23,546 nucleotides of DNA from a virus, in the IMG/VR virus record IMGVR_UViG_3300035698_009595, positions 1 through 23,546 of that record; one strand, written 5' to 3'. A program made the position numbers and the translations under genes. Below are positions 1,661 through 17,600 of the stretch, one piece after another (positions within the stretch are counted from its first letter, which is position 1; each line of letters opens with the position of its first letter). A model generated the notes under the pieces. That model was not told the origin of the DNA and ran no database searches. It saw only the letters and a program-made list of their open reading frames with translations.

Positions 1661-1679
1661 AACTTCCAAAAATAGCTAT

Positions 1680-1889: not shown

Positions 1890-4195
1890 TAGTGTGTCCT
1901 ACTTTCTGCTATAAAAAGGTTATCTTTAGTTAGTTTAATCCCGGAGATTCCAACTAACCTAGTATTGCCGCCTTCACTGTTGAAGCGCATACGCCCGTAC
2001 TTTACACCTTCATTCCTAACAAGGCTCTCTTTTATTTCTTTTATAATTTTTCGCTCAACGGCTGGGTTGATTTTATCAACCTTATAGTTTTCAGTGTAGT
2101 GGTTTATAACTTCTTGGAGGGGGTATTTGTTTTCTTCTTCCCCGGTTATCTCTACGTAGTTATAAATAAAATCTTGAATATCACTAGAGGCTTCCACCAT
2201 ACAGTCTACAATTTGTTTGCTCTCGGCGGTCTTTATAAAGTCTCCCCGCTTCTGCAATTCTATATAACCGTCTACCCAAATATTTACAATACCTGCTTTT
2301 TCATTTTCAATCTTTTCGTAAAGATCTTTAATTTTTAGCTCCGGCTTAAGTTCCAGGTTTACCCCAAAGTTTACAATCAGAAGACGTCGCAACATTCCCA
2401 CAGTAATATCTCTAAGGAATGGTATCTTGTTGTACGTCATAATTATTTTTGCAAAATTCAAAAGATCGAATGGATGCTGAAATTTCTTCTGCGCTTCTAT
2501 AGGAGTGTTACCAGTAACCTGCTTTATAATCCCTGTATCTGAAAAGCACTCCGGTGGTTCTTCTTCACAAAAGTTTACAAGTTTTCCTTCTAACCCCGCA
2601 GCCCCAAACGTCTTTTTCATACTCTGCAATGGGATACTGCTACAATTTCCTCTTCCTAGTACTCTAGAAAACGCTTCACACAGTGAACTCTTTCCGTTAC
2701 TTCCTTCCCCATCTAAAATCAAAACATAATTCAGATGGTAGTCGCAACCACTGAGACAATAACCGCCCCACTCATTTATAACTCTGGTTTTTGTCACGCA
2801 TCCTTCTAAAATATTTTCCAAAAGTTTCTGGTAAACCGGAGCCTTTGCTTCGGGGTCATAGTCACAGTCAAGAGCCGACAACGTGTAGTACTCAGGAGAG
2901 TGCGGAAGTAACTTCTTATTAAGTATGTCAAGTATTCCGTTATTCATATTTACCATATTTTTCGGAAGAGGCTTCATTGAATCTCTTCTGGTCACGTAAT
3001 TTGCAAGCACACTATTAAGGAACTCTTTTCTCTCAGACTCTTTTACAGGAGAAGCAAAGTTATCTTCGGCGAAAGAAATTATTTCCGACTGAAAAATTTG
3101 CTCATAGTATTTACCATTGAAAATTAAAATTTCTTTGGTATCTGCCATAGTTACATAGTGCTTTTCTTCTTTGAAGTACTCTCTTAGCGCATCGTAATCC
3201 CGGATCTTGCTTTTCTTACCTTGGTAAGTGAATCCGTTTTCTTTTGTCCCACCGTGACTTAGCTTTGTACTTGCACCATCTGTTCCAAGTAAATTGCTAG
3301 GACTGTGGCACTTTTGAAAGTAAGGACAAGCTCCACACTTCCCCCAACGCTCGTTTATATCAGTACAGGTCCGGGGGTTATCGGTAGCTGCCCTTGCTTG
3401 ATCTATTTTTTTATCGGTTTCTTCTCTTGTATAACCGGGGTGTCCTTCACTAAATGTGTGTATGATGGCTCGGTCTACGTTACCCATTGAGTCTATAGCT
3501 GCGTACCATAAATCTTCTGAAAGAGTTGCGGAATTTTCGTAGCACTCTTGTAAGAAGGCGCACTTAAACACAAGTTTCAGATCAAAGACGCCAAGTGGAG
3601 TAGCAGTAGACTGTAGTACAGCGTGTTTTAAATTTACGCTGTCACTGAAAGGGTGAGACATAGGTTTTCTATTCTCAGTCCCAGGTATTCTTGCAAGCCC
3701 TCCTGGTTTAAATACAGACGTATCAAATTTTCCTGGAAGGTTCGCTTCTTTTAGTCTTGAGTTTATATGCTCGCAGTAAATTTTATTATTTGGTTTAAGA
3801 AGTTTTAGTTGGTCTTTACTGTCTATAGATACTTTTAGTTTATAGAGAGCTTGGATACCATTACCAGAAGTTATAACGTGTCCACCCTTCGGTAAAATTT
3901 TCACGTACTCGTCGATGCGTGTAAAATCTATAGGCTCTACGACGTTACCTTCTTTATCTTTTTCTGGATCTATATCTATAAGGTAGTAGTCTTGTTTTAC
4001 AAATTCTCTACGCTGTACCTTACTGTGGGCTATAGTATAGAAAAGATTGTAGCGTTCTTTCTTTGTAAGGGTTTCAACAAACACACCATTAAAAAGATCG
4101 TCCATGTTTTCAACGCTTCCCATGTGTACATTAGTTACAGAATCTTTTTGTTCTTTTTCGTCCCGCCAAGGACGCAGCCCATATATTTGAATCAT
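1889..4195 (-). CDS. AEP-type primase / SF3 (D5-like) replicative helicase
   Basis: A 768-aa fused replication protein. The N-terminal archaeo-eukaryotic primase domain shows the metal motif as D74-x-D76 (YYLIDIDPE), a motif II region SGNGIQ (110-115), and the third acidic region at D158 followed by RIPGTENRK (169-177). A Cys cluster (C277, C287, C290, C296) probably binds zinc. The C-terminal superfamily 3 helicase has Walker A GEGSNGKSS (496-504), an acidic Walker B (EEE 544-546), a sensor Asn (N589) and an Arg pair (R603/R604) in the usual place. It should prime and unwind phage DNA at the fork together with DNA polymerase A encoded in the divergent operon. Motif II carries Gln where many AEPs have His. 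The start overlaps the upstream gene as ATGA. Confidence 0.93.
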   Translation of the reverse strand: MIQIYGLRPWRDEKEQKDSVTNVHMGSVENMDDLFNGVFVETLTKKERYNLFYTIAHSKVQRREFVKQDYYLIDIDPEKDKEGNVVEPIDFTRIDEYVKILPKGGHVITSGNGIQALYKLKVSIDSKDQLKLLKPNNKIYCEHINSRLKEANLPGKFDTSVFKPGGLARIPGTENRKPMSHPFSDSVNLKHAVLQSTATPLGVFDLKLVFKCAFLQECYENSATLSEDLWYAAIDSMGNVDRAIIHTFSEGHPGYTREETDKKIDQARAATDNPRTCTDINERWGKCGACPYFQKCHSPSNLLGTDGASTKLSHGGTKENGFTYQGKKSKIRDYDALREYFKEEKHYVTMADTKEILIFNGKYYEQIFQSEIISFAEDNFASPVKESERKEFLNSVLANYVTRRDSMKPLPKNMVNMNNGILDILNKKLLPHSPEYYTLSALDCDYDPEAKAPVYQKLLENILEGCVTKTRVINEWGGYCLSGCDYHLNYVLILDGEGSNGKSSLCEAFSRVLGRGNCSSIPLQSMKKTFGAAGLEGKLVNFCEEEPPECFSDTGIIKQVTGNTPIEAQKKFQHPFDLLNFAKIIMTYNKIPFLRDITVGMLRRLLIVNFGVNLELKPELKIKDLYEKIENEKAGIVNIWVDGYIELQKRGDFIKTAESKQIVDCMVEASSDIQDFIYNYVEITGEEENKYPLQEVINHYTENYKVDKINPAVERKIIKEIKESLVRNEGVKYGRMRFNSEGGNTRLVGISGIKLTKDNLFIAESRTH

Positions 4196-4395
4196 TTTTT
4201 ATGTTCCCTGCATTGTACACAATCTTTTTTTGATGTGGTGGGCTCTATAATCAGCATATCCGTTTCAAATTGTACGTAGCGTTCCTTGCAGGTACATAGT
4301 TCTCTATTAAGTAGTGCTTCTTCCAACGCTTGTAGGTCGTCGAGAGTTAAACTAATTTTTTTAGCATTTGCTTTACGCAAAAAGTTTGTAGGCAT
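4192..4395 (-). CDS. Cys-rich small protein leading the primase operon, 67 aa
   Basis: First gene of the leftward operon. It has a good GGAG site before the ATG at 4395 and starts about 15 bases after the inferred transcription start. Two CxC/CxxC pairs (C34/C36 in LCTCKE and C59/C62 in CVQC) could hold one zinc ion. The N-terminus is basic with a helical segment (LTLDDLQALEEALLNREL). A small zinc-binding protein encoded first in a phage early operon could be a regulator or host-takeover factor, but no family is recognised. Its stop is coupled to the primase start. Confidence 0.72.
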   Translation of the reverse strand: MPTNFLRKANAKKISLTLDDLQALEEALLNRELCTCKERYVQFETDMLIIEPTTSKKDCVQCREHKK

Positions 4396-4417
4396 TTATA
4401 GCTCCAAGTAATTTCAA

Positions 4418-4446
4418 ATGTTAGTTGCGAAGATGTGCAATGACAA
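4418..4446 (-). promoter_or_regulatory. sigma70-like promoter for the leftward operon
   Basis: Minus strand TTGTCA (4446-4441), a 17-base spacer and TAACAT (4423-4418) match five of six and four of six consensus positions. It sits just before the first leftward gene, so transcription would start near 4411, right before the ribosome binding site. Host RNA polymerase would be the reader. Confidence 0.6.
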
Positions 4447-4457
4447 GTAGTTTAAGA

Positions 4458-4524
4458 TGAAGACTCACTTCTATCCTTTCGATCTTGGCTCCAACTAATT
4501 TAGTTTTGACGGAGTGGGTCTTCA
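4458..4524. repeat. inverted repeat spanning the divergent promoter region
   Basis: TGAAGACTCACT (4458-4469) and AGTGGGTCTTCA (4513-4524) are complementary over 12 bases with a single mismatch that is a G-U pair in RNA. The left arm sits 11 bases upstream of the leftward -35 box. The right arm lies entirely in the -35/-10 spacer of the rightward promoter. This looks like two half-sites or two copies of an operator acting on both promoters. A 5' transcript structure is unlikely because both arms lie upstream of the inferred rightward start. Confidence 0.55.
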
Positions 4525-4534
4525 CGCTTAAAAT
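4506..4534 (+). promoter_or_regulatory. strong sigma70-like promoter for the rightward operon
   Basis: TTGACG (4506-4511), an exact 17-base spacer and TAAAAT (4529-4534) each match five of six consensus positions. This is the best promoter match in the window. It precedes the whole rightward replication block, with transcription expected to begin near 4541, about 40 bases before the first start codon. Confidence 0.72.
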
Positions 4535-4579
4535 TTTTTATGGGAGGCTAAGGGAGATATAAAATTGGAGCCGATGATA

Positions 4580-4771
4580 ATGCAAAAACTAGAATACTCA
4601 ATTTTAAATAGCGAAGTCGCTATCATAAAAATTAATAACCAATCGTTCTCCTTAGAAGAAGCAGATATTGTGGACCTTCTTGAACTCTTAGTAGCCGCAG
4701 CAGCAGCTATGAACAGAGCCAAAGATAATAAATACAATACTGAATTTTTAGGGGCGGAAGATTGGAATTAA
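4580..4771 (+). CDS. hypothetical leader-gene protein, 63 aa
   Basis: First gene of the rightward operon. Of three in-frame starts (TTG 4565, ATG 4574, ATG 4580) the last has proper spacing, nine bases, to the GGAG at 4567. The product is acidic and helical with an Ala run (VAAAAAAMNRAK), with no recognised domain. Its end overlaps the helicase start by 10 bases, so the two are coupled. It may be a small regulator or helicase partner, which is inference from position. Confidence 0.7.
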   Translation: MQKLEYSILNSEVAIIKINNQSFSLEEADIVDLLELLVAAAAAMNRAKDNKYNTEFLGAEDWN

Positions 4772-6183
4772 AACTTTGGGAACATCAGAAAACTGGCGTT
4801 AGGCGGTGTAAAGATCTCGACTCCCACATGCTCACGATGGAAGTAGGTACAGGTAAAACTGCTACACTACTACGCATCTATGCAGAGAAATGTAATCAAG
4901 AAAGACGTATCGTACCTATGCTTATTTTTTCTCCACCAATTACTTTAAGTAACTGGAAGAATGAATTTAAGTTGTGGTGTCCTAGAATACCTGCTGAAAA
5001 AATAGTTGTATTAACAGGACCTCTTAAGAAGAGAGTAGAGCTGTTTGAAAAAACAATCGCTCGCCACGGTGAAGAAGTTATCTTTATAACTAACTATGAA
5101 TGTTTGGTACAAGCCAATCTAGATTTGTTCATGTTGTTTAAAAGATATGCTGCAGAGAATGATATTTTTCTTTGCTGTGATGAATCACATAAACTGAAAG
5201 ACTCTACTAGTAAGACAAGCAAAAGAATGTACCAGATCTCTCAGTTTTGTAAGTATAAATTTTTACTAACTGGCACGCCCGTTCTAAATTCTGAAATTGA
5301 TATTTTCCAGCAGTTTAAGATTATGGCTCCCGATGTTTTCGGGAAAAGTATTACAGCTTTTAGGGCGGCGTATTTTACGAATATCTACGCCAACGTATCG
5401 CACATGAGTTTTCCAAAGTACGAAGTTATACCTGAGATGATACCCAAGATAAACGGTAGGCTAAATGCAAACTCTTACCACGTTAAAAAAGAAGAGTGTC
5501 TTGATCTACCTCCTTTAGTTAAGGAGCGTTATGAAGTAGAGATGGCGCCTGACCAGAAAAAAGTTTACAACCAGATGAAGAAACAGTTTGTCGCCTTCTT
5601 AAAAGATGACGTACAATCTACAGCCAGTTTAATAATTACCCAGACGCTTAGACTACAGCAAATAGTTTCGGGGTTTATGCGGGACGAAGATGGAGTGGAC
5701 CATTTATTTAAAAAGAACCCAAGAGCTGAAGCGTTGCGTGATTTATTAACTGAGATCACACCTAACCATAAAGTTATAGTGTGGTGTATTTACAAGAAAC
5801 AGTATGAAATTGTAGCTAAGGTTTGTAACGATATAGGAGTTGAGTATGTTGAATGTCATGGTGGGACTAAAGATAAGGATAGCGCAGTTGAGAGATTTGA
5901 GTCTGGATCTGCACGGATATTTGTGGCTCATCCTGGAAGCGGTGGTATCGGCATTAATCTCATTTCTGCTTCTTATAGTATTTATTATGCTCGTTCCTTT
6001 TCCTTGGAACAAGATCTACAGAGTGAAGCAAGGAATTATCGGGCTGGGTCGGAGAAGCATAAGAAAATCACAAGAATTGATCTGGTCACTCCAGGAACGA
6101 TTGACGAAGATATTTTACTGGCACTAGAAAGCAAAATGAGTATGGCGGCTAGAGTAACTATGCTAAAGGAAAAGTATAAATGA
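4762..6183 (+). CDS. SNF2-type superfamily 2 DNA helicase/ATPase
   Basis: 473 residues with a full set of SF2 motifs. These are a Q-motif-like LWEHQ at the N-terminus, Walker A GTGKT (29-33), DESH box (140-143), TGTP (170-173) and motif VI QSEARNYRAG (420-429) with its Arg finger positions. The arrangement and the second-lobe segment HPGSGGIGINL indicate the SNF2/DEAD-like phage helicase family, which remodels or unwinds duplex DNA using ATP in replication or recombination. It starts at a TTG at 4762, because the first internal ATG would remove the nucleotide-binding N-terminus. It overlaps the 63-aa gene and couples by ATGA to an HNH endonuclease. Confidence 0.92.
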   Translation: MELKLWEHQKTGVRRCKDLDSHMLTMEVGTGKTATLLRIYAEKCNQERRIVPMLIFSPPITLSNWKNEFKLWCPRIPAEKIVVLTGPLKKRVELFEKTIARHGEEVIFITNYECLVQANLDLFMLFKRYAAENDIFLCCDESHKLKDSTSKTSKRMYQISQFCKYKFLLTGTPVLNSEIDIFQQFKIMAPDVFGKSITAFRAAYFTNIYANVSHMSFPKYEVIPEMIPKINGRLNANSYHVKKEECLDLPPLVKERYEVEMAPDQKKVYNQMKKQFVAFLKDDVQSTASLIITQTLRLQQIVSGFMRDEDGVDHLFKKNPRAEALRDLLTEITPNHKVIVWCIYKKQYEIVAKVCNDIGVEYVECHGGTKDKDSAVERFESGSARIFVAHPGSGGIGINLISASYSIYYARSFSLEQDLQSEARNYRAGSEKHKKITRIDLVTPGTIDEDILLALESKMSMAARVTMLKEKYK

Positions 6184-6668
6184 AAGAAATATGGAAAGAT
6201 ATTGCGGGGTTCCCCAACTACCAAGTTTCTAATCTTGGGAGGATCTATAGTAGTAAAAGTAATATCTTTTTGCGACAGAGTCCCACTAATGGGGGGTATC
6301 TAAAAGTTTGTATTTACAATGAGGATAAAGTTAAAGACAGCTATGTACATCGACTTGTATGCCTAGCTTTTTTAATTAACCCTAAAAATAAACCTACTGT
6401 TAATCATATAAATTCTATAAGGGATGACAATAGGCTTACTAATCTTGAGTGGAATAGTTACAGCGAGAACCAAAAACACGCCTTTAGAGTAGGTCTACAG
6501 AACTCACAGGGAGAAAATCATAGTAGATCAAAACTGACAGAGAAAGATGTTTTATTTATTAGGAACAGTAAAAATATAGCTACGAAAGATTTAGCTGAAA
6601 GGTTCAACGTAGTTGAACACACTATACGTAGCGTAAGAGCAAGAAGAAGCTGGAAACATTTAAAATAA
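6180..6668 (+). CDS. HNH homing endonuclease (NUMOD4-HNH-HTH)
   Basis: A 162-aa freestanding homing endonuclease. Residues 4-25 are a NUMOD4 module (WKDIAGFPNYQVSNLGRIY). The HNH core follows, with H57 in YVHRLV, N75-H76 in TVNHINS and N88-L89-E90 in TNLEW. The C-terminus (about 115-160) is a DNA-binding helix-turn-helix of the intron-endonuclease repeat type. Such enzymes nick or cut phage DNA lacking the gene and spread by recombination. Its ATG overlaps the helicase stop as ATGA, so it is expressed within the replication operon; the next gene follows after nine bases with its own ribosome site. All catalytic residues appear present. Confidence 0.92.
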   Translation: MKEIWKDIAGFPNYQVSNLGRIYSSKSNIFLRQSPTNGGYLKVCIYNEDKVKDSYVHRLVCLAFLINPKNKPTVNHINSIRDDNRLTNLEWNSYSENQKHAFRVGLQNSQGENHSRSKLTEKDVLFIRNSKNIATKDLAERFNVVEHTIRSVRARRSWKHLK

Positions 6669-6677
6669 GGAGAAAAC

Positions 6678-7136
6678 ATGGCAACGATTGATAGAAAGAA
6701 TGTAACAGTTGATTTTTTACGTGGACAGATTGATAAAGCTGCAGACTTACGTTTGCAACATGACGAGCTGAAGAAGCGGACAAGTGCAGTATGGAGTGAG
6801 TACGTAACAATCGCTGACGATGTTATGGCTACCATGATGGCTCTTGACTTAAAGAAAATGGACGGTAAAAAATCTGGAAAAGTTTTTTACTGGACTGAAG
6901 GACAAAAAGTAAAAGTTCCTAAAAGTATTCAGGAGTTTGCATTTTTAAATGAACAACTTACTGAGCAAGGTTTGTCTGGCTATCTAACTATTAACTATCA
7001 AAAAGCTAATAGTCTCGCCAAGGAAATACTTGAAGAACAGGGAGACTTAGACACCCCTGAAAAGAAACAAACATTTTTAGAGAAGTTTGGGTTTGAAGTA
7101 GACACAGTAAACTCATACGGAATGAGAAAAGGTTAA
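6678..7136 (+). CDS. hypothetical protein, 152 aa (replication operon)
   Basis: Strong ribosome site (AAGGAG) before the ATG at 6678. The N-terminal half is helical and charged with a likely coiled coil (residues about 12-40). The middle is Lys-rich (KKMDGKKSGKVFYWTEGQKV) and the C-terminal half mixed alpha/beta. Size, helical N-terminus and location beside a putative ssDNA-binding protein and a helicase resemble Gam-like or other DNA-end-binding recombination accessories, but no diagnostic motif is seen. It is best kept as an unknown DNA-metabolism protein. Confidence 0.82.
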   Translation: MATIDRKNVTVDFLRGQIDKAADLRLQHDELKKRTSAVWSEYVTIADDVMATMMALDLKKMDGKKSGKVFYWTEGQKVKVPKSIQEFAFLNEQLTEQGLSGYLTINYQKANSLAKEILEEQGDLDTPEKKQTFLEKFGFEVDTVNSYGMRKG

Positions 7137-7141
7137 ACAAG

Positions 7142-7159
7142 TGGAGCAATTTTGCTCCA
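7142..7159 (+). terminator. intergenic RNA hairpin without U-tract
   Basis: TGGAGCAA (7142-7149) is followed, after two bases, by TTGCTCCA (7152-7159), giving a stem of seven or eight pairs in the 47-base gap before the next gene. No T-run follows, so it is a weak terminator at best. It could be an RNA-processing or stability element between two genes needed in different amounts. Confidence 0.4.
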
Positions 7160-7183
7160 GCAATCCTATAGGAGGATTTGAAT

Positions 7184-7903
7184 ATGAATGATTTAACGCA
7201 GGTAAATGGTAACGCAGTAAGTACAGTAACAAGTAAAGAAGACTTGATGGCACAATTTAACAGGGGAGTAGCTACTTCTCAGTTAACACCAACACTTATT
7301 CTTTTAACTCAAGCTCTTTCTTCTGCAGTAGAAGAAGGCAAGGTAACTGCAGGTTGTTTCATTAAACATGAAAACGCAGAGATTGTAGCAGAAAGAGAGA
7401 CACCTTTTGAGTTCATTCCAGTAGCACGTTCTACTTACTATGATAAAAAAGAAGGTCAATCTTGGCTAGGGAAAGAATATGTTATGGAGTTTGATAACAG
7501 AGAGTACGATAAAAACGGGCAGTATAGCTATGATAAATGTAGTGATTTTGTTTTATTTACAGTGGACCAAATTAAAAACAATGTACGTGTTCCATGTACG
7601 TTTGCATTTAAATCAGCTAACGAGAAGAGTTGCCAACCAATGCTTAAAACACTTGATAGCTTGTCTATGGGTGATTGGCATACAAAGGTTTTCTCTATGG
7701 CTAGTATTCCGAAGAAGAACAAAGCAGGAAAAGCATATTACTCATGTAGAGTAGAATATGTAAGAGATGCAACAAAAGAAGAGTTAGCTTTTATGGCTCC
7801 ACTAGCAGCGTCTATTGTACCTGCGATTGGTGAGCAACAAGTTAATGGTGTTCTAGCTGTAAAAGAAGAGGCTTCTGTTACAGATCAACTAAGGAAATTC
7901 TAA
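7184..7903 (+). CDS. putative phage single-stranded DNA-binding protein
   Basis: 239 aa starting at the ATG at 7184, eight bases after an excellent AGGAGG; an in-frame TTG at 7178 is less likely. The chain is beta-rich in the middle (about residues 60-190), with a Trp/aromatic-containing core, and ends in Ala-rich residues and TDQLRKF. The strong ribosome site suggests abundant synthesis. The gene order helicase, this protein, exonuclease, polymerase is where phages place their ssDNA-binding protein. However, the acidic C-terminal tip usual for SSBs is absent. The function is an inference from size, expression signal and neighbours; it could instead be another replication accessory. Its stop overlaps the exonuclease start as TAATG. 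Confidence 0.8.
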   Translation: MNDLTQVNGNAVSTVTSKEDLMAQFNRGVATSQLTPTLILLTQALSSAVEEGKVTAGCFIKHENAEIVAERETPFEFIPVARSTYYDKKEGQSWLGKEYVMEFDNREYDKNGQYSYDKCSDFVLFTVDQIKNNVRVPCTFAFKSANEKSCQPMLKTLDSLSMGDWHTKVFSMASIPKKNKAGKAYYSCRVEYVRDATKEELAFMAPLAASIVPAIGEQQVNGVLAVKEEASVTDQLRKF

Positions 7904-8643
7904 TGCTAATCCTCGGAGTTGATATAGAAACAGGTGCTTCTTTTGATAAGGGAGTCAGTGAAAATTTTATTACAGAAATTGGTGCTGCTGTATTTGATAC
8001 CAACTACAACCAGCCTGTAAAAATGTTTTCAACTATAGTAGATGAAGAGGGCTTTGATGTAATTGCTCCCGAAGCAGAAATCTACACAGGTATTCCCCAA
8101 TCTATGCGTGATAAGTACGGAATAGATGGTAAGAGTGCGTGTGAAGGATTGAGAGAAATTACTCTTGGGTGTGATTACTACATGGCTCACAATGGATTGA
8201 AATTTGATATACCAATATTGAAACAATCTTTTGAGCGGTATGGAGTTGAGTGGGTGGATCTAGTTTGTATAGATTCACAACACCACGTTCCTTACCCGGA
8301 CCGCTTTAAAAAAAGTTTGGGCGCACTGGCTAATGCACACTTAACCATGAACCCCTTTCCGCACAGGGCTTTAGCAGATGTACTTACAATGTTCAATATT
8401 ATATTCCCTCCCAAACGTGAGGAATATAATTTGGCAAAGATTGTACAGTACGCAAAAGAGCCGAAGTATTTAGTGAAGGCAGAAACCTCTTACGCTAAGA
8501 GAGAACAAGCCAAGAAAGCTGCATTTTTTTGGGACCCTAAAGAGGGCGAGAAAGGTGCGTGGTTAAAGGAAATGAGCGAACAACAAATTAAAGATCGTGA
8601 AAATTCTCTACCGTTTCGTATGACAATACTTAGGAAAGTATAA
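7903..8643 (+). CDS. DnaQ-like 3'-5' exonuclease (DEDDh)
   Basis: 246 aa with the RNase-H-like exonuclease signature. Exo I is D7-x-E9 in GVDIETG, Exo II is N97 with D102 in HNGLKFD, and Exo III is H154-x4-D159 in PHRALAD, the DEDDh subtype. The C-terminal 70 residues (about 175-246) are a Lys/Glu-rich extension outside the nuclease fold. It removes 3' nucleotides from DNA (or RNA) and could serve proofreading, end processing or host DNA recycling. The polymerase next door has its own exonuclease domain, so this is a second, separate nuclease. The polymerase ATG follows its stop directly. Confidence 0.92.
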   Translation: MLILGVDIETGASFDKGVSENFITEIGAAVFDTNYNQPVKMFSTIVDEEGFDVIAPEAEIYTGIPQSMRDKYGIDGKSACEGLREITLGCDYYMAHNGLKFDIPILKQSFERYGVEWVDLVCIDSQHHVPYPDRFKKSLGALANAHLTMNPFPHRALADVLTMFNIIFPPKREEYNLAKIVQYAKEPKYLVKAETSYAKREQAKKAAFFWDPKEGEKGAWLKEMSEQQIKDRENSLPFRMTILRKV

Positions 8644-10431
8644 ATGCAAATCTTAGTAAACATGGAGTGCCTAGAGGAGGTGGCGTCTCTCCTTTCTCGA
8701 AAGCAATTCCTCTCTGTGGATACTGAGACTACTGGCTTGTCCCCCTATAAAGGGGACAAGCTTTTTTCCATCATGATAGGGGACGGCGAAAACGAATACT
8801 ATTTTAACTTTAATTCGTTAGCTGAGAAAAACAGTTTACTCAAGTATAGCCTCATACCTTTTCTCCTCCCCGGAGCGCATACTCTATTTTTACATAACGC
8901 CAAGTTTGATATGCACTTCTTATACAAAGAAGGTTTAGACCTGAGCGATCCCCGGTTCACTATACATTGCACCCAAGCCATCGGAAGAGTCGTTAAGAAT
9001 GATCTTCTTAATTATTCGCTTGATAGTCTTGCCAAAGAAATCGGGTACGAAAAATCTGATGAAGCTAAGGAATGGTTGATAAAAAATAAAGGGTATGACT
9101 GGATCAAGCGCCCAGGAAAGGCTTCAAGAGAAAAAGATTTCCATTATGAATTAGTACCCTTTGATATTATGTTTAAGTACGGATGCAGGGACGCCGAGAT
9201 TACACACAAACTTGGTATGCACCAACTGAACGAGTTACATGAAATGTCCGTCGGAAATTTTAGCGACGTTAAAGTAATGAATATACTGCACCAGGAACGA
9301 GCACTAACTAAAGTTCTATTTGAGATGGAACGAACCGGGATAAAAGTCGATGAAGAATACACCATACGAGCAAGAGATCATGAGCAGGAAGTTCAGCGAC
9401 GATGTGAAGGAGAGTTTACAAGTATTACAGGAGTACCCTTTAAGGATTCTCGTTCTGTACTTGCCAACGCTTTTGATAAGCTCGGTGAACCTTACCCGAA
9501 AACGGCAAAAGGAAATGCTTCTTTTAAGAATGACGTCCTTGAAAAAATGACCACTCCCCTAGCCAGGGTACTGCAGAGGCAGAGGAAAGCACATAAGAGT
9601 GCGGGCACATACTATAGTAATTTTTTATATATGATGGACGCTGACCATACCATTCACACAAATATAAAACAGGGCGGCACAGGTACGGGGCGTATGAGTT
9701 GTGCAGAACCTAACCTCCAGAACCTTACGAAAAAATATGAAGAAGGAGCAGAGTTTTTTGTGCGTAAATGTTTCGTACCCAGAGAAGGGTACAAGTTCGC
9801 TATGATTGACTACGACCAGATGGAGTACCGCCTGATGCTAGAGTACGCAGAGCAGATGGAGCTTATAGAGCAGGTTATAGGCGGAGTAGATGTACACACT
9901 GCTACGGCGGGGGTAATTGGCAGAAGTAGATCTACTGCAAAAAAAATAAACTTTGGTCTTCTTTACGGAATGGGGGTTAAGAAACTAGGGGAAGACTTAG
10001 GGGAAACTTATAACTCTGCTAAGGATATTAAAGAAGATTACTTTAGTAAGCTGCCTGACGTTGCCAAACTTATTAACGGAATTATATCTACGGCTAGAGT
10101 ACAAGGTAATCTGTTTAACAGAGCAGGGAGGGTCTACAGATTTGAAGATCCAAACTTTGCATACAAAGCACCCAACTATTTAATTCAAGGTCATTGTGCA
10201 GACATAGTGAAGAAAGCAATGATAGATCTACATGAATATTTAAGAGATAAAAAATCTAGAATGATTATGCAGATACATGATGAAATCTTATTTGAAATTC
10301 ATGAAAGTGAAGATAGTATATTGCCAGACTTAAAACGAATAATGGAAGAGGCTTTTCCATATAAACTTTTGCCCCTTACTGCAGGTATTGAAACCAGTGC
10401 GGTTAGTTGGAACGACAAACAGGAGATGTAA
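8644..10431 (+). CDS. family A DNA polymerase with 3'-5' exonuclease domain
   Basis: A 595-aa phage replicative polymerase, somewhat shorter than T7 gp5. The exonuclease domain has D26-x-E28 (SVDTETTG), N85-x3-D89 (NAKFD) and D183 (CRDAE). The palm has motif A IDYDQMEYR with D389, motif B R429-x3-K433-x3-F437-x3-Y441 (RSTAKKINFGLLYG) and motif C HDE (545-547). The TGRMSCAEPNLQN segment (about 348-360) is also conserved. All catalytic residues are present, so it should copy DNA with proofreading. F437 corresponds to E. coli Pol I F762. The early coding sequence contains a terminator-like hairpin. The stop overlaps the next gene as TAATG. Confidence 0.97.
   Translation: MQILVNMECLEEVASLLSRKQFLSVDTETTGLSPYKGDKLFSIMIGDGENEYYFNFNSLAEKNSLLKYSLIPFLLPGAHTLFLHNAKFDMHFLYKEGLDLSDPRFTIHCTQAIGRVVKNDLLNYSLDSLAKEIGYEKSDEAKEWLIKNKGYDWIKRPGKASREKDFHYELVPFDIMFKYGCRDAEITHKLGMHQLNELHEMSVGNFSDVKVMNILHQERALTKVLFEMERTGIKVDEEYTIRARDHEQEVQRRCEGEFTSITGVPFKDSRSVLANAFDKLGEPYPKTAKGNASFKNDVLEKMTTPLARVLQRQRKAHKSAGTYYSNFLYMMDADHTIHTNIKQGGTGTGRMSCAEPNLQNLTKKYEEGAEFFVRKCFVPREGYKFAMIDYDQMEYRLMLEYAEQMELIEQVIGGVDVHTATAGVIGRSRSTAKKINFGLLYGMGVKKLGEDLGETYNSAKDIKEDYFSKLPDVAKLINGIISTARVQGNLFNRAGRVYRFEDPNFAYKAPNYLIQGHCADIVKKAMIDLHEYLRDKKSRMIMQIHDEILFEIHESEDSILPDLKRIMEEAFPYKLLPLTAGIETSAVSWNDKQEM
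8735..8767 (+). terminator. intrinsic-terminator-like hairpin inside the polymerase gene
   Basis: GCTTGTCCCC (8735-8744), a seven-base loop CTATAAA and GGGGACAAGC (8752-8761) form a perfect 10-bp GC-rich stem. Six T (8762-8767) follow directly. This is the full architecture of a rho-independent terminator, in the sense orientation, about 90 bases after the polymerase start. It encodes residues 31-41 (GLSPYKGDKLF). Premature termination here would reduce polymerase mRNA relative to upstream genes unless translating ribosomes disrupt the stem. Confidence 0.7.
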
Positions 10432-10814
10432 TGAGCGAAGTACAATCAATCAATCACAAGGGTGGGTACATTATAGAGAGCACCGGGAGAGTTTACGATC
10501 TCGTTAAGAAGAAGATGCTCGATATAAAAACTGAGACAGAGACAGGGGAACTTTTTGTAAGTATGCGCCCGTACCCTACCGCTTCACACCAGAATAGAAA
10601 GTACATGAGAAATCTTATAGCTAAAAACTTCCTACCAGATAGAGAATTTTTTAGAACCAACGCGAGAGTTGTTTTTAAAGATGGAGACATAAGAAATATT
10701 GATCTGGAGAACCTGGAGATTGTACACACCATAACTTCTTCCAGTGCTAAGCGTCTTAACAAGGCAAGCAAGTCAGACTTCTGGAACATCAACGACTCAG
10801 CTCTGTATAGTTAA
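10431..10814 (+). CDS. HNH-fold protein lacking the catalytic histidines
   Basis: 127 aa from the ATG at 10431, which overlaps the polymerase stop as TAATG; a longer frame from 10407 is disfavoured. The layout follows HNH homing endonucleases: a GRVYDL segment near residue 19, a KYMRNLIAKNFLPD helix (57-70), and VVFKDGDIRNIDLENLEIV (80-98). The last aligns with the NHINS...TNLEW core of the HNH enzyme at 6180. The positions expected to be His are Arg60 and Phe82, so the nuclease is probably inactive or uses different residues. It may have been kept as a DNA-binding or structural factor. The NLE signature is retained. Confidence 0.85.
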   Translation: MSEVQSINHKGGYIIESTGRVYDLVKKKMLDIKTETETGELFVSMRPYPTASHQNRKYMRNLIAKNFLPDREFFRTNARVVFKDGDIRNIDLENLEIVHTITSSSAKRLNKASKSDFWNINDSALYS

Positions 10815-11113
10815 TGGCTAAGAAGCCCGAAACTCTATTCAAAGAAAAAGTTCTAAAGCAACTTAGAGCTTTGCCCTATAGCTGGTGGGAAAAAATACAG
10901 CAGGTAACACTAAGGGGAACCCCGGACCTAATAGGCTGCCTCAATGGGAACTTCATCGCAATAGAATTGAAACGATCTGCTAAGGCGGAGATAGAGTTGT
11001 TGCAAGTAATAAAGTTAGAACGAATCGGGAAAGCGGGGGGTACGGCAATAATTGCCTACCCTGAAAATTGGGAAGTTGTTTACGCACAGTTAGTAAAAAT
11101 GTCCCAGTTGTAG
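10814..11113 (+). CDS. VRR-NUC domain nuclease
   Basis: A 99-aa stand-alone nuclease of the PD-(D/E)XK superfamily. It has RGTPDLIG (D38) and FIAIELK (E51, K53) followed by Q64 and the GG turn at 75-76, the pattern of the VRR-NUC family. Stand-alone phage members cut branched or flapped DNA and may play the part that T7 endonuclease I plays, resolving junctions and degrading host DNA; the specific role is inferred. It starts at TAATG with the HNH-like gene. Its 3' end overlaps the antisense nuclease gene by 34 bases. Confidence 0.9.
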   Translation: MAKKPETLFKEKVLKQLRALPYSWWEKIQQVTLRGTPDLIGCLNGNFIAIELKRSAKAEIELLQVIKLERIGKAGGTAIIAYPENWEVVYAQLVKMSQL

Positions 11114-11481
11114 CGATAGGCGTAGTGCTTATCCTTCTTACTAAAAGGATAAATACGTAGGGATGAGGTAGTTCCAACGTCCTCGAACGGGAAGAAGTAC
11201 CACATATCTAAAGGGTGTAAGTACACCGCAAAAACGTCTACCTGTGCCTTAGTATATTTAGTTTTATTGGAAGCACCTTTAGATGTATTTATACGAAAAG
11301 AATTTGGGTTCTGGCTGTCTACGACAGCGGAAGATTTTACCTGTACACGCAGAAGTTTTTCACCTGTGTCTATAATGAAATCGTAGCTCTCTGCACTATG
11401 CGGAACGGCGATGATAAATCCTTCCTTTTCCGCTAGGTACTGGAAATGCAGCTCTGCTATATCCCCGTTATGTATTGCCAT
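11080..11481 (-). CDS. antisense PD-(D/E)XK endonuclease (PDDEXK_11-like)
   Basis: The only leftward gene inside the rightward block. The ATG at 11481 (MAIHNGD) is preferred over one at 11529, which would overlap the neighbour's start. Its 133 residues follow the group I intron-associated/PDDEXK_11 nuclease pattern. NGDIAE has E10, ESYDFIID has D34, RVQVKSS is the (Q)xK motif at 47-49, and VDVFAVYLHPLDMWYF (81-96) is the usual C-terminal strand pair. Such proteins are often freestanding homing-type nucleases. The reversed orientation and overlap with the nuclease before it suggest insertion of a selfish gene into the operon. No clear ribosome site is visible, and only a weak TATATT box precedes it. 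Confidence 0.88.
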   Translation of the reverse strand: MAIHNGDIAELHFQYLAEKEGFIIAVPHSAESYDFIIDTGEKLLRVQVKSSAVVDSQNPNSFRINTSKGASNKTKYTKAQVDVFAVYLHPLDMWYFFPFEDVGTTSSLRIYPFSKKDKHYAYRYNWDIFTNCA

Positions 11482-11504
11482 ACTAATATTGTGCTTGCTA
11501 ATAT
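11475..11504 (+). promoter_or_regulatory. possible sigma70-like promoter restarting the rightward operon
   Basis: TTGCCA (11475-11480), an 18-base spacer and TAATAT (11499-11504) match five of six and four of six consensus positions. It lies just before the gene at 11528, where the antisense nuclease breaks the operon, so a fresh promoter would make sense. Confidence 0.4.
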
Positions 11505-11527
11505 ACAGAAAAGCAAAGGAGCTAAGC

Positions 11528-11947
11528 ATGATAGAAATTTCAAGACAGTGGCTTAATAACCCAGAGTTTATGGAAACGATTGGTGTAATACGTGACCAAT
11601 TAGATTTTGTATTACCTACCTATAAAACAAATTTTAATAAGATTTTTCATGGCGTAGAGCTAGAGATGCAGAAGGCTACACAGATCGTCCAGATAGGGCT
11701 TTTCAAGCACTGTACGATAGAAGATGGTGTAGTTAAGGAAGACGAACAGGGACCCTTTTTTAAGACGCCTCAAGACTGTACGGACTTTGATGCTTCCTTA
11801 AAAATATATTTTGATAAGACGTTCCAAATCATGGCTGACCCTGTAAGATTAGATACTATAAAGGAAGGGACCATCCCTTTCTCTCAGCGGGACAAAGACG
11901 CTTTAGCGCCAGTTATAGATCATGAGCATAATGAATGGGAAGTATGA
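11528..11947 (+). CDS. hypothetical protein, 139 aa
   Basis: The frame is open from 11411, but the ATG at 11528 has a strong AAAGGAG site six bases before it and marks the start of protein-like sequence (MIEISRQWLNNPEF). The product is soluble and mostly helical with a possible beta hairpin in the middle (about residues 65-80), and ends in HEHNEWEV. No known motif is visible. It is separated from the upstream operon by the antisense nuclease and may be driven by its own promoter. It overlaps the last rightward gene by about 26 bases. Confidence 0.8.
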   Translation: MIEISRQWLNNPEFMETIGVIRDQLDFVLPTYKTNFNKIFHGVELEMQKATQIVQIGLFKHCTIEDGVVKEDEQGPFFKTPQDCTDFDASLKIYFDKTFQIMADPVRLDTIKEGTIPFSQRDKDALAPVIDHEHNEWEV

Positions 11948-12113
11948 ACCAGTTCTATTAGTAAATCCAGATGGTGATTTAGCCGGACACCTTTTAGAAT
12001 TTCTTGAAAGTGTAATGCTTGAAGCATCTTCGGAAGACCCGGAGCTTGATATGGTTTTAGAACATATAAGAAGTGCTAGAGAAATCTATAAAGACTATCA
12101 AGAAAGTTTCTAG
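11922..12113 (+). CDS. hypothetical acidic protein, 63 aa
   Basis: Last rightward gene. It is a small acidic helical protein (LLEFLESVMLEASSEDPELD in the middle) with no recognised domain. Either the ATG at 11922 or the one at 11931 could be used; neither has a strong ribosome site, so translation probably depends on coupling to the gene it overlaps. Its TAG stop at 12111-12113 lies in the CTAG palindrome that also provides the stop of the facing leftward gene. Confidence 0.65.
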   Translation: MSIMNGKYEPVLLVNPDGDLAGHLLEFLESVMLEASSEDPELDMVLEHIRSAREIYKDYQESF

Positions 12114-12262
12114 CCCTTCTTTTTCTTCTCTTTTTTATCTAGTAATTCGTAGACACTTTTCTTAGCGTTCTTAATGATATTAGAAAAAGATTTTTTTGCA
12201 CTTCTGTCCAAGAAACCTTCTCTAGTTTTTTTGATTTTATTTCTGTCGTAGTATCCGCTCAT
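12110..12262 (-). CDS. lysine-rich small protein at end of virion block, 50 aa
   Basis: An ORF of 50 codons from the ATG at 12262, which overlaps the stop of the large ejection protein as ATGA. The product is highly basic (17 Lys), ending in a run of Lys and Gly. Residues 30-40 (IKNAKKSVYEL) resemble the C-terminal end of the preceding 616-aa protein (MKDRSKSVYEA), so the two share a short KSVYE motif. It is the last gene of the leftward virion block and ends on CTAG shared with the opposite operon. The role is unknown; the motif and charge suggest a packaged partner or DNA-binding accessory of the ejection proteins. Confidence 0.7.
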   Translation of the reverse strand: MSGYYDRNKIKKTREGFLDRSAKKSFSNIIKNAKKSVYELLDKKEKKKKG

Positions 12263-14109
12263 CGGTTATTCCCCTGTTTCTTTAGTGCTTCGTACACTGA
12301 TTTACTTCTGTCTTTCATTACTTCTCTTTTTATAGCTGCTCTCACTAGAGGAGTTTTTGTAGCAGTCTTAATACCTGCCTTAATCATCCCCGGAGATAGT
12401 AGAAGTGCAGGCACAGCCCCACCAACTCCAGCACCTAAGAACCCACTGGCTCCTTGTGACCTAGCAATCTCTGCTCCAGCAGCTCCACCTAGCATAGCTC
12501 CTACACCGCCTACTTTAGAGTAGTGTTGGACAGATCCGTATAAACCATCAGGTTTTCCGAAGGTGGAGTATGCGCTTAGAAGTCTTGCTTCGTCTGTTAG
12601 GTTTGTACCCAGCGCTTTGTCAGCTCTTTTAACGGTGCTCATAAGCACACGTTTATTTTTCTTGTTCATGTTACTTAGGATATTGAAAGCAGTTTCGGGG
12701 TTACTAAATTTGTTACCTAGTTGTCCCTGTAAAAGCTTAAGCTCTTTGTACTTTGACTTAAGACCTTTTATATCTATGCTACTTCCACCGTTGTCGGCTA
12801 GTGCTTCTACAGCATTGTCTAATTTAGTACTCAAGTCAGTCCAAGCTGCACCCGCAGCTCCTGCTAATCTTTTCTGAAATACTGGCTTACTTTTTCCGAA
12901 CCTGTCAGCAAGACCCATCTTGGTGTTACCGAGTTGGGCTAGGTCACTAAGTGATTCTTTTAGCGCCAATGCTTTCTCTGGAGTAACGATTGTCTCAGGC
13001 TCGATAGTTCTTATAATGTTTTTACCACTCTCGTCTACGATACCTGTGTCTACTTTTTTTGTGGCCCCGAATATATTTTCTAACTCACTTCTAACAGTGG
13101 CTATTTTCTCAGTCATATCAGCAGTTCTTGAGTCTACAGGAATCTGCTCATACTCTTTTAGTATCCCATCGAAGTTCTCTCGTAGATCTCCTATATCAAT
13201 TTTCTGATCAAGCTCGTCAAAAGCGGCTCCCATCTCTTTACCGATTTTGGTTCTAGCCTCATTGTATTTAGTACCCATCTTACCGAGCTTCCCTTCCATG
13301 AAGGTTCCAAGATCTACCTTGTCTAAATTTTCAATGGCTTCCATATTTCTTGTGGCGTACTCAATTACATCTTGGTCTACGCCAGATAAAACTGATGTTC
13401 CTTTGGTCATTACTTTGCTTGTAGCGTTTCCGATAAGTCCTGCATTATGCTTAGAAGATTTTATCAAAGCAGCGGCAAGTTCTTTACTCCCCGGAGCATA
13501 CCCCTTTTTTAAAAGAGATTTTCCCATTTGTTTTAACGTAGCCCCGGACCCCGCTATAGGAGCGGCGATACCACCAGTTAAACCAGCAATGGCTACGCTT
13601 CCTGCATCAAAGTCTTGATCCATTCCACCTAGTTGTCCTATCGTTTGTCTAATTCCTTCCATACCAGCGCCAGCGGCAGAACCCGCTGCTATAGCTCCGG
13701 GTACACTTCCTGCTAAAAATCCTGCAGTAGTAGCAGCGCCTTCTACAGCCATGGAGGTTAAATCCCAGGCTAGGTCTGCAACATCTCTTCCCGCTTCAGC
13801 TATGGAAAAAGCTCCGGGGTCTAATTTTCTGTACTCAGTTTCCCCTGCATCCCTAAGTACAATGTCTCCTTTTTTAATCTGGACATCCATATCTGGGAAT
13901 TGGCTCTTTATATAATTGGCTTGCTTCTCTTGGTCGTTACCAAAACCTTTTGCGAATACTCTTGAGCCAAGATTATCTTTTATAGCAGGATGGATCTCGT
14001 CTTTTATTTCTAGCTTGTCACTATTCTGAGCAAGGTACTCATTATATTGTTGATCTTGTTGTTGTTTTACAAATTGTACATACTCTTCGTATTCAGCGTC
14101 GTCGCTCAT
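12259..14109 (-). CDS. large internal virion / DNA ejection protein with hydrophobic Gly-Ala segments
   Basis: 616 aa. The N-terminus is Gln-rich (QQQDQQYNEYL). A compact region (about 45-100) runs through KGFGNDQEKQANYIKS and ends with DPGAFSIAEAGRD. Two or three Gly/Ala-rich hydrophobic stretches follow (about 119-150, 170-188 and 535-575), able to insert into membranes as glycine-zipper helices. The centre (about 260-500) is long helical and charged. This composition is typical of podovirus internal proteins that leave the head before the genome and build a trans-envelope channel, the role inferred here. It is last of five ejection-type genes and starts by TAATG coupling. Confidence 0.82.
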   Translation of the reverse strand: MSDDAEYEEYVQFVKQQQDQQYNEYLAQNSDKLEIKDEIHPAIKDNLGSRVFAKGFGNDQEKQANYIKSQFPDMDVQIKKGDIVLRDAGETEYRKLDPGAFSIAEAGRDVADLAWDLTSMAVEGAATTAGFLAGSVPGAIAAGSAAGAGMEGIRQTIGQLGGMDQDFDAGSVAIAGLTGGIAAPIAGSGATLKQMGKSLLKKGYAPGSKELAAALIKSSKHNAGLIGNATSKVMTKGTSVLSGVDQDVIEYATRNMEAIENLDKVDLGTFMEGKLGKMGTKYNEARTKIGKEMGAAFDELDQKIDIGDLRENFDGILKEYEQIPVDSRTADMTEKIATVRSELENIFGATKKVDTGIVDESGKNIIRTIEPETIVTPEKALALKESLSDLAQLGNTKMGLADRFGKSKPVFQKRLAGAAGAAWTDLSTKLDNAVEALADNGGSSIDIKGLKSKYKELKLLQGQLGNKFSNPETAFNILSNMNKKNKRVLMSTVKRADKALGTNLTDEARLLSAYSTFGKPDGLYGSVQHYSKVGGVGAMLGGAAGAEIARSQGASGFLGAGVGGAVPALLLSPGMIKAGIKTATKTPLVRAAIKREVMKDRSKSVYEALKKQGNNR

Positions 14110-15440
14110 TAAGCGCCTCCTTGACTTGCTTTCTGCTTATCAAATTCTTCTCTACTTGGGATTGAGTACGTAAAGTCCGCTCTAGATTTTAACCCATTCT
14201 TATTAGCTACTTTCTGCTCTACAAGGATTTGGTCCGCACTCTTGTCAGGACTTCTCTCAGATTCGTAGATGGCTTTTGCTTGGTCGTAAGCTCCACCTGA
14301 TTCTGCTTTTAGTCCCGCAATTCTCTTCTCTCTTCTTCTACGTTTTGCTTCAAGAATTTGAGGTGTATCAGTAGGCTGTGCAATATAGTCAAAGTCGGAT
14401 GCTTTTAATTCAAACTCGGCAATCGCTGCACCTGTATCAGGTCTTAGTACATTCATAACAAAAGATTTTGCTGCGTTTTCATATGCCTTAATCTGCGGAT
14501 CTTTTTCTCGCATAGAGAATAAGTCTAACATGTTAGACACACCAAATTGTTCCATCTTAGCGTCTAGTCCTAACATAACTTCGTCGCCTACTTTAGTCAT
14601 ATCTCGGTGAGCATCTTCAGCTCCCATAGTAAAACGAGCTGCTTTGTATTGGTTAGCTTTAAAAGTGGTTGGCGCTAATTGTTTTAACTTCGCCAGCTTC
14701 ATAGCATTACCTTGTGCCTGGTTAGCTGCAAGTGACTTCACAAGACTTGCCTGTGAATTAGCCATATTTAATTTTTGATTATTTATTGAGCTTCTAAGTT
14801 TTAACACTAATTGTGCTTTCTCTTCAGGAGTCTGTGGTGCTTTATATAGTTTAGCAAAGTTACTCCCGGTCCACTGGTCAGTAAGTGCCATTAACGCTGA
14901 GTAATTAACAGGCGTATCTGCACTTTGTATTTCATTAAGTTCGTCCTCTAGTCCTGAGATACCTTTTCCGTACTCATTGATTGAACGCATTTGTCTTCCG
15001 ATCATGTACCCAAATTTTTCATCCTTAGCCATACCATCAAAATCTTCCAGCTCGTCGTCATTTAACGTGAGTGAATCTTTCTGAATCTTCTCGTACACAG
15101 AGCTGGTTTTTTCTCCTATGTATTCTGGGGCTGAAGCTGCATAACTTACTTGGTCTACGTTTACTGCGTTGTCATACTCACTAGGTTTTGGTGGTTTTTC
15201 TTTTTTACCATTGGGACTTCTTCCCGCAGATTGCTCCGGGGATGCTTCGTTATTAGCTGCCTGGCTCATATTTTGTTGTGCTGATACTTGCGCCCAAGGA
15301 CTGTGATTAAATCCTTCGACAGGCTGAATATTATCTGCTCTTTCTTGTCTTACTTGGTCCATTCCGGCTAACCTATCATAGATAGCAGAAGGGTCTATAC
15401 CTTGCCCTCTGTTTAACCCTGGATTATATACACCTGCCAT
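14109..15440 (-). CDS. internal virion / DNA transfer protein with TGAAI motif
   Basis: 443 aa with a disordered Pro/Gln/Asn-rich N-terminus (about 1-110) and a helical remainder. The segment LRPDTGAAI (residues 332-340) followed by the acidic/aromatic FELKASDFDYIAQPTD and a Lys/Arg-rich helix is a motif I associate with phage DNA transfer/ejection proteins. It was probably carried in the head and ejected with the DNA; that follows from family resemblance and gene order. It has an AGGAG site before the ATG at 15440 and couples to the 616-aa protein by TAATG. Confidence 0.84.
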   Translation of the reverse strand: MAGVYNPGLNRGQGIDPSAIYDRLAGMDQVRQERADNIQPVEGFNHSPWAQVSAQQNMSQAANNEASPEQSAGRSPNGKKEKPPKPSEYDNAVNVDQVSYAASAPEYIGEKTSSVYEKIQKDSLTLNDDELEDFDGMAKDEKFGYMIGRQMRSINEYGKGISGLEDELNEIQSADTPVNYSALMALTDQWTGSNFAKLYKAPQTPEEKAQLVLKLRSSINNQKLNMANSQASLVKSLAANQAQGNAMKLAKLKQLAPTTFKANQYKAARFTMGAEDAHRDMTKVGDEVMLGLDAKMEQFGVSNMLDLFSMREKDPQIKAYENAAKSFVMNVLRPDTGAAIAEFELKASDFDYIAQPTDTPQILEAKRRRREKRIAGLKAESGGAYDQAKAIYESERSPDKSADQILVEQKVANKNGLKSRADFTYSIPSREEFDKQKASQGGA

Positions 15441-15450
15441 AATATTCTCC

Positions 15451-15768
15451 TTAAGGTAATTGCTCTTGGGTCATGAGTCTGTTAGTAGCTTCTCCACCAG
15501 ATGCTCCACCCATGTCTCCATAGACACCTCTATCTTTTCCGGGCTTTTTACCTGGATTCTGGGCGTCAAATTGAAGACCCATCATAGCCCCTTGCATCAT
15601 GCTGCCCATAGGATCGGCTTCTTTTATAGCCCCCATATTTGGTGCTATGCCTGTGTAAGGACTTACTCTTGCGAGTTCCGATTGCAATTTTCTTTGTGCA
15701 TCCGCTTCTCGTTCTTGTTTCTTAGCTTGGATTGCTCCCATTGCTAAACCTGCTACTGCTGACCACAT
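15451..15768 (-). CDS. small virion-associated (ejection-type) protein, 105 aa
   Basis: 105 aa. The N-terminus is a short hydrophobic Gly/Ala helix (SAVAGLAMGAIQ) followed by a charged helix (AKKQEREADAQRKLQSEL) and an SPYTGI element (about 36-41). The rest is Met/Gly-rich and disordered. This pattern is common in small podovirus proteins encoded with the internal virion set. Its excellent AAGGAGG site suggests high synthesis. It lies between two larger ejection-type proteins. A role in the ejectosome is inferred from composition and context only. Confidence 0.75.
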   Translation of the reverse strand: MWSAVAGLAMGAIQAKKQEREADAQRKLQSELARVSPYTGIAPNMGAIKEADPMGSMMQGAMMGLQFDAQNPGKKPGKDRGVYGDMGGASGGEATNRLMTQEQLP

Positions 15769-15778
15769 ATAATCCTCC

Positions 15779-16879
15779 TTAAAAGCCGAAGCCCCCTAAT
15801 ACTTTTGATACTACTTTACCTACTCCACCTTGTTTCGGGGCGCTATTAGCTATGCCTTTTCCCGCTTTCTCTGCAGAGTACGCTCTCTTCTGCCCGCTCC
15901 ATCTGTCAAAAATGGCTTGGTCTTCTAAGCCTCTTTCTTGTAGTGATTGCTGAATATTAAACTGCTTAGGCATAGTCTCTGCCTTATCTAATCCTACTTG
16001 TTTGTTTAGTTGGCTCATTCTATCTTGCGCTTGTCCCGCTTGTAACTCTCTTTGTTTATTTCTAAGCTGATCTCTTGGGGCGCTACGAGCAGCTAATCCT
16101 GCGCCGCTTCCTCTAATAGCTCCTAGCTCTCCAGACCCACTACCGCCTGCAAACTTCTGTCTAATCTGAGAAAAGTTTTGGGCTGATTGTCTTGCTTGTC
16201 CGTCCTGCGCTAAGTTTGCCGCAGTACCTAATCGCTGTGATTGGATCTGCCCAGATGCGTCCAGTTTATCCATGCCTTGCATAGATCTATCTCTAAGAAG
16301 TCCTACTCCTTTTTCAAGGTTACTTCCGTCAAGCTGCCAATCTTTCTTAAGCATCCCGCCTTCGCCAGTTATCTTGTTATATCCTTTCCATTCTGGTTGA
16401 CCGTCGCCAAAGCTCCCGCCTTTTAAAAATCTATCGGCGACCCCTTCAGGAGATTCTATCTCCGCTCTTTCAGCGTCTAGTAAAGCTTGGTCTGCTTCCC
16501 AGTTACCCGCTTCTTCAGCGCCAAAAGTTCTTCTAAACTCATTACTATTGCTATCTCGTTGGTCCCATATTTCTTGTCGGTGAGCTTGCTCCCTACCCCT
16601 TGCTTCGTCGGCTCGTTTTTGCTTTTCCTCTGGAGACTCATTTTTTCTTGTAACTTGGTCAGCGTAAAACTTTTCTCTATCTTTTGAGTACTGCCCGTAG
16701 TTACCACCTGCTCCGAACTCCTTGTACAGATCTCGTTTACCGAAAGCTTGCTGATCTCTATCAAAGTTCTTTTTCCGTCCCTGATAAAGCCCCCACGCTT
16801 CCCCAGAATCTTGCCTACGAAATTGCCTGTAGCCTCTCTTTGGTCCTTCCTCTGGTATGTTTTGATTGTCATTAGCCAA
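15779..16879 (-). CDS. internal virion-type protein, paralogue of the upstream 242-aa protein
   Basis: 366 aa beginning at a TTG (16879) that overlaps the end of the preceding gene by 8 bases and has a G-rich site (AGGGGG) about six bases upstream; no in-frame ATG exists nearby. The N-terminal half is Arg/Lys/Glu/Gln-rich and charged. The C-terminal 150 residues are Gln/Ala/Arg-rich helix ending in GIANSAPKQGGVGKVVSKVL. That ending matches the C-terminus of the 242-aa protein upstream (AYANSAPEQSIFGKLTGGLL), and the Gln-rich helices before it also align, so the two are tandem paralogues. It is a likely virion interior protein. An ORF of 131 codons in another frame also starts here but is probably a shadow. 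Confidence 0.8.
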   Translation of the reverse strand: MANDNQNIPEEGPKRGYRQFRRQDSGEAWGLYQGRKKNFDRDQQAFGKRDLYKEFGAGGNYGQYSKDREKFYADQVTRKNESPEEKQKRADEARGREQAHRQEIWDQRDSNSNEFRRTFGAEEAGNWEADQALLDAERAEIESPEGVADRFLKGGSFGDGQPEWKGYNKITGEGGMLKKDWQLDGSNLEKGVGLLRDRSMQGMDKLDASGQIQSQRLGTAANLAQDGQARQSAQNFSQIRQKFAGGSGSGELGAIRGSGAGLAARSAPRDQLRNKQRELQAGQAQDRMSQLNKQVGLDKAETMPKQFNIQQSLQERGLEDQAIFDRWSGQKRAYSAEKAGKGIANSAPKQGGVGKVVSKVLGGFGF

Positions 16880-17600
16880 GAAGACCCCCTGTTAGTTTCC
16901 CAAAAATACTTTGTTCGGGAGCGCTGTTTGCATAAGCGTTACCTGCTACGTCAGCCCCGTATGATTTCATTTGTTCTCCAAAAATTCTATTCTGTAACCC
17001 ATCTTGTCTTCTCTTCTCGCCCAATCTGTTCTTAAGATTAAACTCGTCAACCGATAGCTTACCTAGTTCTGCCTGAGGTAGCATCTCTTGTGCATTTCTT
17101 TGTACGTCTGCTTTTTGCTGTAAAATACCCATGCCCCTGTCAGCCGAACCTGCTCTTTGTCTTTGCTGACTCATCATAAGATTTCTTTTCCCAGCTCTAG
17201 CAATTCTATCAGAAGCGGCACTTGATACTCCGCCTGTCTGAGCTAAATTTGATTGCGCTTCGTCAGCACCCGTAGCCGCTAATTTAGAAGAGTGTCCTAA
17301 GTCTGCGGTGAGGTTACTGGAGTTCTGCTCCATCATACGGTTAAAAGGATCGTTAAGAGCTGCACCGCCGCCAGCTATACTTCTCATTCTGCCCAGTGCT
17401 TGCTCGTTCATTCCAGCGGTCATATCGCCTGATAGTTTACCGTCTTTATTTAGAAGATTTCTAAAATCAATCTTCCCTGGGTCTGATACTGATCCTACTT
17501 TGTTCCCCTGTAATAGTTCCCTATTCTTTTCCATGTTCATACGTGGCTTAGAATAGTAGTTGGCTCCGTTAGGATCTTCGGGGTTGTTGGCGTAACTCAT
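16872..17600 (-). CDS. internal virion-type protein, 242 aa (first of a paralogous pair)
   Basis: 242 aa starting at TAATG coupled to the adaptor gene. Gly, Ala, Gln, Asn and Arg dominate. A Gly/Ala region (about 75-82) precedes a long Gln/Arg/Lys helix (about 130-215) and the C-terminal AYANSAPEQSIFGKLTGGLL. The last part resembles the neighbouring 366-aa protein. No enzyme motif is visible. Position directly after the connector adaptor and before the other ejection-type genes suggests a structural protein in the tail channel or head interior. Confidence 0.82.
   Translation of the reverse strand: MSYANNPEDPNGANYYSKPRMNMEKNRELLQGNKVGSVSDPGKIDFRNLLNKDGKLSGDMTAGMNEQALGRMRSIAGGGAALNDPFNRMMEQNSSNLTADLGHSSKLAATGADEAQSNLAQTGGVSSAASDRIARAGKRNLMMSQQRQRAGSADRGMGILQQKADVQRNAQEMLPQAELGKLSVDEFNLKNRLGEKRRQDGLQNRIFGEQMKSYGADVAGNAYANSAPEQSIFGKLTGGLLG

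Follow-up and report, generated by a model that had tools for sequence, protein, structure and literature searches.

The window (the whole stretch of viral DNA analysed here, 23,546 nucleotides) contains a hairpin with the shape of an intrinsic terminator inside its DNA polymerase gene. We consider, with a probability of about 0.7, that it arose chiefly as a by-product of the motif that the protein carries at this site, combined with codon drift. The hairpin occupies positions 8735–8767 of the plus strand, where the window reads GCTTGTCCCC-CTATAAA-GGGGACAAGC-TTTTTT: a 5′ arm (8735–8744), a seven-base loop (8745–8751), a 3′ arm that is the perfect complement of the 5′ arm (8752–8761), and a T6 tract that abuts the stem (8762–8767) and is followed by CC. 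The stem has ten Watson–Crick pairs, seven of them G-C, and is extended by a wobble pair between G8734 and T8762. A T-tract follows the stem on the plus strand only, which is the sense direction, and the stem begins 91 nt into the polymerase gene (ATG at 8644). The first-pass annotation had described just such a perfect 10-bp stem in the polymerase coding sequence, with its seven-base loop and T6 in the sense direction, and is confirmed on these points. The isolated hairpin has a calculated folding energy of −18.0 kcal/mol, and it is kept in the minimum-energy folds (the only folds computed) of the transcripts 8600–8770, 8644–8770 and 8644–8800. Its terminator score, which combines hairpin energy and T-tract by a published formula, is 26.6 and serves as a relative yardstick only. 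Two sequence hallmarks of an intrinsic terminator are present, namely a G-C rich hairpin with a short loop (8735–8761) and a U-tract directly after the stem. The element thus has the outline of a canonical intrinsic terminator, and is ordinary in kind.

The polymerase gene (8644–10431, plus strand) encodes a family A DNA polymerase of 595 residues with a 3′–5′ exonuclease domain (PF00476, 9e-68; PF01612, 1.4e-12; PHROG 17). The hairpin overlies the exonuclease I motif DTETTGLSPYKGDKLF and lies inside the codons of the motif region, DTETTGLSPYKGDKLFS (8719–8769, plus strand), within the PF01612 match to protein residues 7–190. Upstream is a gene for an RNase T-type exonuclease (7903–8643, plus strand), whose stop codon abuts the polymerase ATG. 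The exonuclease/polymerase block is flanked by two genes for HNH-type endonucleases (6180–6668 and 10407–10814; NUMOD4/HNH_3, PHROG 959), which are possibly mobile insertions. The coding strands of the window are purine-rich (57% overall, and 64.5% in 15779–16879), unlike the first 300 nt of the polymerase gene, where the purine content is 43–53%.

In a general scan, no other terminator-like site in the window comes close to the hairpin in strength. The scan of positions 1–20000 gave 13 terminator-like sites, compared to 15.2 ± 4.6 in shuffled sequences, so the genome is not enriched in such sites. The hairpin at 8735–8761 is also the single perfect stem of at least 8 bp with at least four G-C pairs in the coding sequences of the window. 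Chance was estimated by synonymous recoding, with codons drawn according to the window's own usage. Recoding all 22.3 kb of coding sequence gives 0.010 expected sites that combine a stem of at least 10 bp and a T-rich tail, and recoding the hairpin peptide alone gives a probability of 0.0022. Real coding sequences contain no sense sites of this kind in 985 kb of viral DNA and three in 746 kb of bacterial DNA, a rate over the total of about 1.7 Mb of roughly 0.04 per 22 kb, based on crude gene calls. Such a hairpin is unusual for a single phage fragment, yet expected somewhere when many windows are scanned.

A second perfect 10-bp hairpin, at 736–763 (AGCTATTTTT/AAAAATAGCT, loop of 8), is A-T rich, has no T-tail, and lies in a small minus-strand gene. 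An unlisted lysine-rich ORF of 50 residues (MSGYYDRNKIKK...KKEKKKKG; 12110–12262, minus strand) occupies a convergent gap, and its stop overlaps that of the plus-strand gene at 11922–12113. Nothing terminator-like was found where the two genes converge near 12110, and neither the Rfam nor the tRNA scan of the window gave any match.

The pairing is in part supplied by the encoded peptide. Numbering from the first base of the GL codons, the stem falls in the register i+j=30, which matches third codon positions with third positions, such that the conserved proline pairs with glycine, and GL pairs with KL. Over synonymous encodings of the peptide, a mean of 6.57 of the 10 register pairs is formed by the peptide alone (counting G-T pairs), and all 10 are formed in 1.5% of encodings. 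When all the coding sequence of the window is recoded, the site is a hot spot, with one 30-nt bin accounting for 15 of the approximately 25 T-tailed stems of at least 8 bp. The KLF codons readily yield the T-tract AAGCTTTTT. The hairpin is thus the joint product of the motif and of codon choice. It had originally been attributed to codon choice, which holds in so far as synonymous sites complete the stem, but leaves out the pre-pairing by the peptide itself. The further remark that the codons are unusual for this genome is correct in that GGC, TTG, TCC, CCC, GGG, GAC and AAG are all minority codons in the window, but is weakened by CCC, which encodes half of the prolines in the polymerase gene.

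In our reading, the motif GLxPxxGD[K/R]LF pre-pairs the RNA, by matching the proline CC to the glycine GG and the G-L codons to the K/R-L codons, while L-F supplies the T-tract. In the window phage, synonymous sites would by chance have completed a perfect stem. RNA free of ribosomes would be expected to fold, and RNA polymerase of the bacterial type to stop there in a fraction of its passages. In infection, ribosomes starting at 8644 would probably lessen termination without abolishing it, and termination would cost some of the polymerase mRNA. The hairpin is probably competent to terminate. Some termination is plausible at 91 nt, a position that appears compatible with partial activity, because an E. 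coli terminator placed 30 bp after the start codon remains largely effective, with a loss of about 10% to translation (PMC4824070). The leading ribosome reportedly catches up only after approximately 100–200 nt, and it has been argued that putative terminators in ORFs need to be repressed, in order to avoid nonstop mRNA (PMC4824070). Given the small effect of translation and the argument from nonstop mRNA, a mild and tolerated cost fits better than a dedicated switch, which is less probable. A purine bias has been reported in bacteria with runaway transcription (PMC13323073), in which case the RNA would go without the protection of ribosomes. The 57% coding purine of the window resembles that bias; this argument, which depends on the host, was set aside.

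Viral contigs, searched both by protein and with degenerate patterns for ETxGL-4-GDxxF, were the source of the relatives; 88 other viral polymerases carrying the motif were scored, with duplicates removed and the window excluded. Annotated phages provided relatives only at about 30% identity or less, which are of no use for synonymous comparison, and genome contigs provided one at 39% and the remainder at about 30%. No relative was found above about 50% identity, so that the comparison speaks to older rather than recent selection on the hairpin. The perfect stem and T-tract of the window are kept in none of the 88. The terminator score at the motif site does not exceed 0 in 85 of them, and is positive in three: L020 (28.0; GCCTGCGCCC...GGGTGACAGGC TTTTTT), L228 (7.2) and L235, which is the same contig as L059 (2.5). 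The hairpins in L020 and L059/L235 sit 85–91 nt after the start, and that in L228 56 nt after it. The synonymous null predicts about 0.36 such relatives at the motif site, giving a Poisson probability of 0.006. Across 148 kb of the relatives' genes and short upstream stretches, 11 sites were found where the null gives 1.9, some of them upstream of the true start, and the shortfall of the null outside the motif is roughly two- to four-fold. Since the null under-predicts to this extent elsewhere, the expectation at the motif becomes approximately 0.8–1.4, and the probability of at least three moves from 0.006 to about 0.05–0.17, a rough figure in which shared ancestry is ignored.

The first-pass annotation proposed attenuation inside a replication gene. 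A selected attenuator would stop transcription unless a ribosome follows closely, and so tie polymerase output to translation. This is favoured by the rarity, under synonymous recoding, of a perfect stem followed by T6 on the sense strand, and by the similarly placed hairpins in L020 and L059/L235; for E. coli it is established that ribosomes can suppress terminators (PMC4824070; PMC5021804). An attenuator would be expected to be kept among relatives, or to covary at synonymous sites, and neither was seen in these relatives, which lie below about 50% identity. Mean register pairing in the 88 is 5.22, compared to a synonymous expectation of 5.07, and covariation is absent at the third positions paired as 3-27, 6-24 and 9-21 (z of −0.66, 0.46 and 0.75). 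Whole-register shuffles gave z of 1.5–1.7 for the hairpin register c=30; the unrelated register c=33 scored highest, and register z was therefore dropped as support for the hairpin. Local fold energy at the motif site is below synonymous expectation in the 88 relatives (z −0.54 ± 0.12), which may reflect codon preferences missing from the null. The stronger mRNA structure at the motif in these relatives follows no common pairing pattern.

Individual relatives also break the stem. L025 is identical to the window over GLSPYKGDK and has pairs 2-28 and 9-21 broken, while L248 is identical over GLSPYKGD and has four pairs broken. These two come close to what had been named beforehand as evidence against a function, namely relatives in which the peptide is unchanged but its codons disrupt the stem. 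L234 and L020 are identical over 12 residues, GLRPYQGDRLFS, and L234 lacks the hairpin of L020. L013 keeps all 10 pairs, via one two-sided change (6-24) and wobbles, and has lost the T-tract. Moreover, early E. coli terminators are relieved only about 10% by translation, which would make a terminator at 91 nt a poor sensor of translation, and termination at the hairpin would leave nonstop mRNA. We see no sign in these comparisons that the hairpin was selected as a switch, and consider a selected attenuator unlikely. Comparative support for attenuation is thus lacking at the distances available, and the earlier interpretation as a whole is partly supported. The wider proposal, that intragenic attenuation recurs at the exonuclease I motif of this group of phage polymerases about 85–91 nt after the start (window, L020 and L059/L235, and weakly L228) and limits polymerase synthesis, is equally doubtful, and the case made for it by the L020, L059/L235 and L228 hairpins is weak.

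Relative L013, 44% identical to the window polymerase, has a canonical intergenic terminator (GAATAGGGGG...CCCCCTATTC TTTTTTT) that begins 57 nt before the polymerase ATG, and further terminators lie upstream of the polymerase in L065, L247 and L108. A terminator could act as a constitutive cap, lowering polymerase expression compared with that of the upstream exonuclease and of further genes for replication, with no sensing of translation. The abutment of the upstream gene on the polymerase start would suit such a cap, as would the intergenic terminators of L013, L065 and L247. However, upstream terminator-like sites occur in only 6 of 138 polymerases and the intragenic hairpin is not conserved, and we regard a cap as slightly less likely still than an attenuator. 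A role as a DNA or RNA–protein site (an operator, a replication signal or an autoregulatory site for the polymerase) would suit a perfect inverted repeat within a replication gene, and has a precedent in the T4 polymerase, which binds a hairpin at the ribosome-binding site of its own mRNA. Such a role is very improbable here: the repeat is inside the coding sequence and not at the ribosome-binding site, and the same palindrome was absent from the viral contigs in which it was sought. A DNA operator was rejected, as the half-site TTGTCCCC is not enriched: with at most one mismatch it occurs 17 times in the window (12.9 expected), matching exactly only at the hairpin.

Origin mainly as a by-product of motif and codon drift is not free of difficulty. 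Drift into a perfect stem is itself an event of 0.2–1% per such window, and the three terminator-scoring relatives against 0.36 expected, the lowered fold energy and the 10 pairs of L013 all count against it.

The hairpin resembles lambda tR2 placed in E. coli ORFs (PMC4824070) in its G-C rich stem, short loop and U-tract, inside an ORF near the start codon; those terminators were placed and measured by experiment, whereas the window hairpin is natural and known from sequence alone. It would also share a possible 3′ end within an ORF with RNA ends described in E. coli, although the latter were mapped in RNA rather than read from DNA (PMC7815308). Most ends of E. coli internal sRNAs are ascribed to RNase processing, and one (aceK int) to intrinsic termination (PMC7815308). 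As in leader-peptide attenuators of the pyrBI type, the position of the ribosome would decide whether the terminator folds; in contrast to these, the window has no identified leader peptide, pause or antiterminator structure, and the ORF is that of the polymerase itself. A literature search gave no matching report of a terminator within a phage polymerase gene.

If the hairpin terminates, it would be a natural case in which the codons of a conserved protein motif can make transcription stop, and would bear on how phages set the dose of their polymerase and on constraints on codon choice. If it does not, it is a useful caution that apparent intragenic terminators need to be compared with synonymous recodings of the encoded peptide, given that certain conserved motifs readily produce hairpins of this kind.
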